The position numbers and the translations under genes are program-made. DNA of 50,202 bases from a virus, in the IMG/VR virus record IMGVR_UViG_3300023708_001009, positions 1 through 50,202 of that record; one strand, 5' to 3'. How positions within the stretch are numbered: position 1 is the stretch's first letter; each line of letters begins with the position of its first letter. The notes beneath the pieces are model-generated. The model was not told where the DNA came from and did not search any database. It saw only the letters and a list, made by a program, of their open reading frames with translations. Positions 49,250 through 50,202 of the stretch are shown piece after piece.

Positions 49250-49681
49250 ATGAAGATATGTAATAAATGTAATCAGAGCAAGGACATTGAGCTTTTTGCC
49301 AAGGGTAAAGCCTATAAAGATGGCAGAAGAAATATTTGTAAGCAATGCCACTCTGATTACATGGTTAATTACTATAAAAATAATGACGAACAAAGAACAA
49401 TTAAAAATAGAATAAATACAGGTAAAGATTTTAACTGGAAAAGGCATCACATTTCAAAAGAAAAGTTCGATGAAATGGTTGACAAATTTGATGGCAAATG
49501 CTATACTTGTAAAACAAACAAAGCTACAAATATAGACCATGACCATTCTTGTTGCCCAGGCAATAGAAGTTGTGGAAGTTGTATTCGTGGCATACTTTGT
49601 AATCAATGTAATACGGCATTGGGATTGTTAAAAGATTCTAAAGTCGTTTTACAAAGACTTATAGAGTATCTTGGTCCATAG
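49250..49681 (+). CDS. Recombination endonuclease VII
   Basis: Encodes 143 residues. T4 gp49-like enzymes cut Holliday junctions and branched DNA before packaging. The HNH core is clear: C84-x2-C87, then NIDHDHSC (96-101), then RGILCNQCNTALGLLKDS with C117-x2-C120 and N121. An additional N-terminal zinc ribbon has C4-x2-C7 and C30-x2-C33. Its last three codons form the 5' strand of the tRNA-Asn acceptor stem. The start has little leader. Confidence 0.88.
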   Translation: MKICNKCNQSKDIELFAKGKAYKDGRRNICKQCHSDYMVNYYKNNDEQRTIKNRINTGKDFNWKRHHISKEKFDEMVDKFDGKCYTCKTNKATNIDHDHSCCPGNRSCGSCIRGILCNQCNTALGLLKDSKVVLQRLIEYLGP

Positions 49682-49744
49682 CACAATTGGCGGTGCAATC
49701 GGCTGTTAACCGATCGGTTGTAGGTTCGAATCCTACTGGACCAG
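49672..49744 (+). tRNA. tRNA-Asn (GTT)
   Basis: Full cloverleaf: acceptor TGGTCCA/TGGACCA, D stem GCAC/GTGC, anticodon stem ATCGG/CCGAT with loop CTGTTAA (anticodon GTT), T arm GTAGG-TTCGAAT-CCTAC, and discriminator G. A 5' T and discriminator G are normal for bacterial tRNA-Asn. CCA is not encoded. The first ten bases overlap the end of the endonuclease VII gene, so processing of the tRNA removes that mRNA's 3' end. Confidence 0.95.
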
Positions 49745-49908
49745 CGTTGATAGATAATCACTATCACAACCGTTTCATTTCGGACAAATGAACGCCCTTA
49801 CAGCGATACAGTAAGCGTGTAGGAATCTCTCGTTATCGGTTCGGAGTTGGTCACTCGTCTTAGGAAACGACTCAGAGATGTAGATCTGATTAATCTGACA
49901 TCTCAACT
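49745..49908 (+). ncRNA. Structured spacer A between tRNA-Asn and tRNA-Gly
   Basis: 164 bases with no supported gene. Hairpins visible: GATAG/CTATC (49749-49765); CG-TT-CATTT/AAATG-AA-CG with one bulged T (49771-49794); CTTAC/GTAAG (49797-49815); and an 11-pair stem GAGATGT-AGAT/ATCT-ACATCTC with one bulged G (49875-49904). The last stem ends four bases before tRNA-Gly. Phage tRNA spacers are usually much shorter. Whether this is a stable RNA is inferred. Confidence 0.45.
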
Positions 49909-49979
49909 GCGAATATAGTTTAGTGGTAAAACTTCTGCCTTCCAAGCAGATAATGCGAGTTCGATTCTCGCTATTCGCT
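49909..49979 (+). tRNA. tRNA-Gly (TCC)
   Basis: Cloverleaf: acceptor GCGAATA/TATTCGC, D arm GTTT-AGTGGTA-AAAC, anticodon stem TCTGC/GCAGA with loop CTTCCAA (anticodon TCC), T arm GCGAG-TTCGATT-CTCGC, and discriminator T, as in bacterial tRNA-Gly. CCA is not encoded. It reads GGA and GGG; GGA is a common glycine codon in the phage structural genes. Confidence 0.95.
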
Positions 49980-50171
49980 CAAACAGATCTCTGACGAGAG
50001 GTCTGGAGAATGGCTGAACGAAGTTCCTTGTCTAGATGGAATGAGAAAGGCACATGGCTGGGATTAGCGTCCCTGCTCTTAGCGGAGCAAGGCTGTGGTA
50101 GGATTAAGGCGATATCTAATGGTATCTAGACTTCTCCTTGGTGGTAATAGACAATCCACCTTCTCACATTT
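49980..50171 (+). ncRNA. Structured spacer B between tRNA-Gly and the third tRNA
   Basis: 192 bases with no supported gene but dense pairing. There is a 9-pair hairpin at 49984-50005 (CAGATCTCT/AGAGGTCTG). GGAGAA (50005-50010) can pair with TTCTCC (50132-50137), and GTCTAGAT (50030-50037) with ATCTAGAC (50124-50131). GAAC/GTTC makes a small hairpin at 50016-50026. Two abutting hairpins share the loop TTAGCG (50060-50073 and 50074-50089). GGTGG/CCACC lies at 50140-50160. The long-range pairs enclose a multi-branched fold. It is a candidate non-coding RNA. Confidence 0.5.
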
Positions 50172-50202
50172 GGTCTGTTAGCTCAGTTGGTTAGAGCACC
50201 TG
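50172..50202 (+). tRNA. Third tRNA, truncated by window edge
   Basis: GGTCTGT (acceptor 5' strand), TA, then the D arm GCTC-AGTTGGTTA-GAGC and the start of an anticodon stem (ACCTG). The D-loop AGTTGGTTA and the leading GGTCTGTTAGCTCAG are typical of tRNA. The anticodon lies beyond the window, so the amino acid is unknown. Confidence 0.85.

Follow-up and report, generated by a model that had tools for sequence, protein, structure and literature searches.

Weinberg et al. (2010, PMC2864571) published the manA RNA motif, which they found in marine metagenomes, in cyanophages and in two gamma-proteobacteria and put forward as a candidate riboswitch located in 5' UTRs; it was later listed for cyanophage S-CREM1 (PMC9964418). 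Our literature search, which covered little of the subscription literature, found no paper that places manA RNA in tRNA arrays. Bacteriophage T4 has RNAs C and D (species 1 and 2, rnaC/rnaD), small structured stable RNAs arranged head-to-tail with tRNAs (PMC3014915, PMC9697503), and GOLLD and ROOL are non-coding RNAs of phages and prophages often found near tRNA islands (PMC12286853).

We analyzed an entire IMG/VR record of 50,202 bases (the window), whose major capsid protein shows 43-45% identity to those of Streptomyces phages of Stanwilliamsviridae, consistent with the tailed-phage, actinophage-like source proposed in a preliminary description of this DNA. The locus at 49981-50171 (plus strand, as are all features below; 191 nt) is a real, evolutionarily conserved structured RNA and a member of the known manA family, not a new class. 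The manA model of Rfam release 15 (RF01745, gathering cut-off 55.2 bits) matched 49987-50170 over its whole length (model positions 1-192 of 192) with 65.9 bits (E = 1.2e-14), and we took the whole inter-tRNA interval as the expected processed RNA. The preliminary description had recognized a structured RNA here, as this match and covariation in 41 homologues bear out, but its statement that the RNA fits no class is superseded by the passing of the cut-off for a family published in 2010. Besides the score over the whole model, the locus has the P1 hairpin, the closing helix and the 3' hairpin with covariation in relatives, and the marine core nucleotides at 21 positions common to both branches, which were partly fixed by our scan patterns. 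What it lacks is the 5' UTR setting, ahead of a protein gene, that goes with the Rfam type cis-reg, since tRNA-Gly and a partial tRNA flank it. As the 5' UTR position is a contextual trait and not part of the model definition, membership in manA holds, whereas the cis-regulatory label is not transferable. No open reading frame (ORF) of at least 60 amino acids lies within the RNA region or downstream of it in the window, and ARAGORN called no tRNA or tmRNA inside the RNA region and no tmRNA anywhere in the window.

When viral contigs were scanned for the manA core, 119 stretches were obtained; 117 belonged to the marine type, and the remaining two (L082 and L099) had twin TTAGCG loops and lay inside tRNA arrays. 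A second scan, requiring two TTAGCG loops and the core GGTA-N6-AATCC, gave 77 stretches, of which about 71 were real and formed 35 clusters at 90% identity, the window included; matches discarded by eye as coding or chance were L124, L134, L135, L147, L175 and L195. Two scans blind to the loops yielded 29 clusters. Among 36 related records, 35 matched RF01745 at E<=1e-9 and 17 scored above its cut-off, which shows that the branch is divergent within manA; about half of it would be missed by annotation because of scores below the cut-off. Conversely, our branch model R1 matched all sampled marine manA loci over the full length with E values of 1e-12 to 1e-18 (its score of 168 bits for the window RNA is high by construction). 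The RNA of the window thus belongs to a distinct, divergent branch of manA that lives in phage tRNA arrays. Among 84,980 species of bacteria and archaea, the twin-loop pattern was matched 12 times, always by chance and never with the manA core. Blastn of the window RNA against phage records found only short unrelated matches, and the single homologues L181 and L132 found none as queries.

The RNA region is more stable than 197 of 200 dinucleotide shuffles (z = -2.39), and 52 of 60 base pairs show two-sided changes in a 41-sequence alignment of loci from viral contigs, on the window row of which the structure was drawn. Both the random-sequence comparison and the covariation check named in the preliminary description were in favour of a structured RNA. 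Compensating cells numbered 479 in the alignment, as against 180 +/- 11 in shuffled alignments and 84-149 when the partners were slid, and 82% of the cells were paired (63% shuffled, 38-49% slid); note that the comparison with the slid controls favours the drawn structure, which was chosen on the same sequences. The Rfam match and the reciprocal R1 search, however, support this structure independently.

Each helix contains pairs that change on both sides. The P1 hairpin with its GACG loop (49984-50005) is 80-88% paired, with two-sided changes in 9/9 pairs, and is followed by the 5' strand GAGAA of the closing helix (50006-50010), whose partner is TTCTC at 50161-50165 (87% paired; two-sided changes in 5/5 pairs). 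The preliminary description had instead paired GGAGAA (50005-50010) with TTCTCC at 50132-50137; both strings are present, but the conserved partner is the downstream one, and 50135-50138 pairs with AGGA at 50100-50103. Next comes the core TGGCTGAA (50011-50018), which is common to marine manA and was partly built into the scan patterns. The letters GAACGAAGTTC are likewise present at 50016-50026, but the small GAAC/GTTC hairpin described previously is not conserved; instead, GTTCC (50023-50027) pairs with GGAAT (50038-50042) in a hairpin supported by covariation (50023-50042). The loop of this hairpin holds the strand GTCTAG (50030-50035), which forms a pseudoknot with CTAGAC (50126-50131). 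This long-range pairing, described earlier between GTCTAGAT (50030-50037) and ATCTAGAC (50124-50131), proved sound (86% paired; two-sided changes in 5/6 pairs). The same applies to the two abutting hairpins, GGGATTAGCGTCCC (50060-50073; GGGA-U(UAGC)G-UCCC) and, with no gap between, TGCTCTTAGCGGAGCA (50074-50089; UGCUC-U(UAGC)G-GAGCA), which recur in relatives, also in the loop-blind scans, and are paired in 96% and 79% of the alignment cells, respectively. The 3' terminal hairpin GGUGG-UAAUAGACAAU-CCACC (50140-50160), with the invariant GGUA..AAUCC, is 100% paired. The core TGGC.GAA / AAGG / GGTA..AATCC is common to both branches, from cyanophages to actinophage-like phages; this comparison is circular to some degree, as parts of the core were specified in the scan patterns.

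In the window, the RNA lies in an array in which the order tRNA-Asn, RNA Y, tRNA-Gly, manA RNA and next tRNA leaves zero free space. According to the tRNA search, tRNA-Asn(GTT), the first of the visible array, occupies 49672-49745 and tRNA-Gly(TCC), immediately 5' of the manA RNA, occupies 49909-49980; the gap between them is filled by RNA Y, a second unannotated structured RNA of 163 nt (49746-49908). On the 3' side, the record ends 31 nt into the next tRNA (50172-50202), the 5' part of which was recognized in the sequence and is probably from tRNA-Asp; the near relatives L174 and L192 run on into tRNA-Asp(gtc). An ORF resembling recombination endonuclease VII (49250-49681) extends over the initial 10 nt of tRNA-Asn; this gene and the tRNA array thus also adjoin without a gap.

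The association with tRNAs extends to the relatives. A tRNA lies within 100 nt in 32 of the 41 branch clusters and in none of the 38 marine clusters (Fisher P = 2.7e-14), while 12% of random positions in the same loci have one as near. The upstream tRNA ends within 20 nt in 18 clusters and the downstream tRNA starts within 8 nt in 14. The flanking tRNAs vary among relatives (Asn, Gly, Trp, Thr, Pro, Leu, Ser, Met and Glu), suggesting that the branch RNA is a movable gene. Where no tRNA follows, many members have a strong terminator-like hairpin next. In L139, L148 and L152, an ORF of 69-143 amino acids begins 28-37 nt past the AATCC core, and some branch members, such as these, may have a leader role.

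The branch also has a member in a cultured phage. In the Streptomyces phage TunaTartare (NC_070784), the branch model matched 67811-67976 (E = 2.4e-17), and the RNA (67812-67972; L300:2313-2473) exactly fills an unannotated gap between tRNA-Gln and tRNA-Trp. Judging from DNA similarity, not from the branch model, its relatives Sham, Blueeyedbeauty, Beuffert, Faust, Annadreamy and Limpid appear to carry a member as well; the branch model found no match in BillNye, Circinus, Coruscant or T4. A Ro-like RNA-binding protein, near the RNA in TunaTartare, was considered as a partner and rejected, as no TROVE protein was found in 25 records including the window.

We consider it likely that the manA-branch RNA is a free-standing non-coding gene of the tRNA array, which is processed and acts in trans, and not an mRNA leader. 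The order of the elements implies one precursor transcript, and the location of the RNA suggests that it is probably excised by the tRNA-processing enzymes: RNase P would generate the 3' end of the RNA by cutting where the downstream tRNA begins, and an RNase Z type enzyme, maturing the 3' end of an upstream tRNA in which CCA is not encoded, would generate its 5' end. Once released, the RNA (about 190 nt) would adopt a closed, pseudoknotted body consisting of the P1 hairpin, the GAGAA/UUCUC closing helix, a pseudoknot (GUCUAG/CUAGAC) involving a hairpin loop, a stack of two tetraloop hairpins and the 3' hairpin. It would probably act in trans via the core common to the cyanophage manA leaders (UGGCNGAA, AAGG and GGUA..AAUCC), the conservation of which suggests a functional surface; our guess is that it most likely binds one protein or translation component.

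The main alternative is a true manA riboswitch or other cis-regulator, with ligand-dependent control of the expression or processing of the downstream tRNA. Such a role would agree with the proposal of riboswitch candidates in 5' UTRs in the 2010 description (PMC2864571), the complex conserved core would suit an aptamer, and the marine branch does precede a same-strand ORF in 100 of the 105 loci with room for one, at a median distance of 60 nt; in the Prochlorococcus phage P-SSM2, for example, a marine-type copy ends 12 nt before the annotated purL. We also considered marine manA as a stand-alone transcript, but a terminator-like hairpin occurs in only 16 of the 100 loci with a same-strand downstream ORF, and the 5' UTR reading therefore stands for the marine members. 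In the tRNA-array branch, however, what follows is a terminator-like hairpin or a tRNA of varying identity (Trp, Asp, Gly, Asn, Thr, Pro, Leu or Met), an abutting tRNA leaves no space for an expression platform, and in the window no ORF of at least 60 amino acids follows to which such a platform could be coupled. We regard control in cis as unlikely for this branch; with marine members preceding ORFs and the branch of the window in tRNA arrays, the same RNA family serves in two settings.

As for the genes downstream of marine manA, 26 of the ORFs form one family and, to judge from their sequences, look like T4 gp32, and others look on the same basis like transaldolase and Hsp20. About a quarter of the marine manA RNAs (within L002-L120) lie directly upstream of an ORF resembling gp32, a single-stranded DNA-binding protein; gp32 is not named as a manA target class in the accessible part of the 2010 description (PMC2864571).

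Phage tRNA arrays help to withstand host defences that cut tRNAs, and the RNA could be a structured bait for a tRNA-cutting nuclease or another RNA-sensing defence protein. A decoy might well share compact arrays with tRNAs and other structured RNAs and have broadly swapped neighbours, as the branch RNA does. Nevertheless, we found no sequence or structural likeness to a cleaved tRNA arm, ARAGORN makes no call in the RNA, and a decoy would leave unexplained the marine branch that precedes diverse protein genes, so that we think this reading quite improbable. It is also conceivable that the RNA is a passive element, namely a spacer or a cluster of stability or processing hairpins with no partner of its own, given its dense local hairpins and its position next to tRNAs. 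A spacer, however, would not need the invariant unpaired and loop nucleotides (TGGC.GAA, AAGG and GGTA..AATCC) or the conserved pseudoknot, and in these arrays adjacent tRNAs mostly lack such an element between them, which makes a passive role very hard to defend.

The twin loops deserve separate consideration. A better reading of TTAGCG is a UAGC tetraloop with a U.G closing pair, because C-G and U-A close it in relatives. Since the second scan required TTAGCG twice, we judged the conservation of the loops on the loop-blind scans only, in which UAGC occupies both loops in 23 of the 29 clusters and other tetraloops are found in six (for example, UAAC and UAGU in L321, and UCGC and GCAA in L323). 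Its occasional replacement makes a structural role of the loops likelier than base-pairing with a target. The preliminary description had suggested a kissing-loop or titration role and a search for loop matches; within the window, TTAGCG occurs 12 times (12.25 expected), and neither it nor its complement is enriched elsewhere. A sequence-specific antisense or kissing site (complement CGCTAA), for which the UAGC loops of the 23 clusters would speak, is scarcely credible in view of the other tetraloops, GCAA and UAAC among them, and of the chance frequency of both strings in the window; nor can the twin loops kiss each other, being identical and not self-complementary. We infer that the loops are structural, and they might, at a guess, serve as docking or dimerization contacts.

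The manA-branch RNA is accompanied by other RNAs in these arrays. RNA Y has no Rfam match at E<=1, and its 3' half was found in 15 other viral loci, in each of which it directly follows the upstream tRNA wherever one was called. Its 3' hairpin shows compensatory changes (GAGATG/CATCTC, GGGATA/TATCCC, GAGGCA/TGCCTC and GAGGTG/CACCTC). RNA X, of about 150-173 nt, occurs at L174:12312-12480, L188:310-480, L140:592-760 and about 80 other viral loci; its position in the near relatives L174 and L192 is immediately past the point where the contig of the window ends. It starts directly after a tRNA, ends with GCCA...TGGC before the next tRNA, and has a hairpin loop, CTGAACA, complementary to GTTCAG further downstream. 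RNA X forms 35 clusters; both neighbours were called in 34, and all of these have a tRNA on either side. In its consensus, 94.5% of cells are paired (73.5% shuffled), with 304 compensating cells, a number that in 200 shuffles never exceeded 115; it has no Rfam match. Further structured-looking spacers of 110-260 nt between tRNAs, which match neither X nor Y clearly, were seen at L082:4249-4401, in the Thr-Glu spacer of L130, and in L129, L133, L164, L181 and L193.

On balance, we lean towards the view that the tRNA arrays are general carriers of interchangeable, unannotated structured RNAs placed between tRNAs (the manA branch, Y and the widespread X), which would be excised by the enzymes of tRNA processing and act in trans during infection. 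If so, the cyanophage manA 'riboswitches' would be one branch of an RNA that has a free-standing original or alternative form. For manA, an orphan among riboswitch candidates since 2010, a large branch outside mRNA leaders alters the likely role, which the member in TunaTartare makes testable in a cultured phage.

In comparison with described manA, the branch of the window shares P1 with its GACG loop, the closing helix, the TGGCTGAA core and the GGTA..AATCC 3' hairpin. It differs in having two UAGC tetraloop hairpins where marine manA has hairpins with GUGGUG and ACCA loops, in a pseudoknot that joins a hairpin loop to the CTAGAC strand, and in its position between tRNAs instead of in an mRNA leader. 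Phage tmRNA is likewise a structured RNA of tRNA arrays, but neither a tRNA-like domain nor a tag frame is present in the RNA of the window. In another locus, a spacer of 282 nt that separates tRNA-Arg from tRNA-Glu (L183:275-556, on the RNA-carrying strand) resembles phage-encoded tmRNA, as judged from its sequence.

The closest functional analogues would seem to be T4 RNAs C and D and GOLLD/ROOL, none of which was homologous by the tests run. GOLLD and ROOL are far larger (many GOLLD RNAs exceed 800 nt, compared with the 191-nt interval of the window) and belong to other Rfam families, neither of which matched in the window. Homology to rnaC/rnaD was rejected, since the branch model had no match at E<=10 in the tRNA clusters of T4 and T2; against the whole T4 record, there was none at E<=0.01. 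The likeness to T4 RNAs C and D is one of setting, both being in a phage tRNA cluster. Since the arrays hold further families with no Rfam match, non-coding RNAs of the kind of T4 RNAs C and D seem to have been largely overlooked in phage tRNA clusters.
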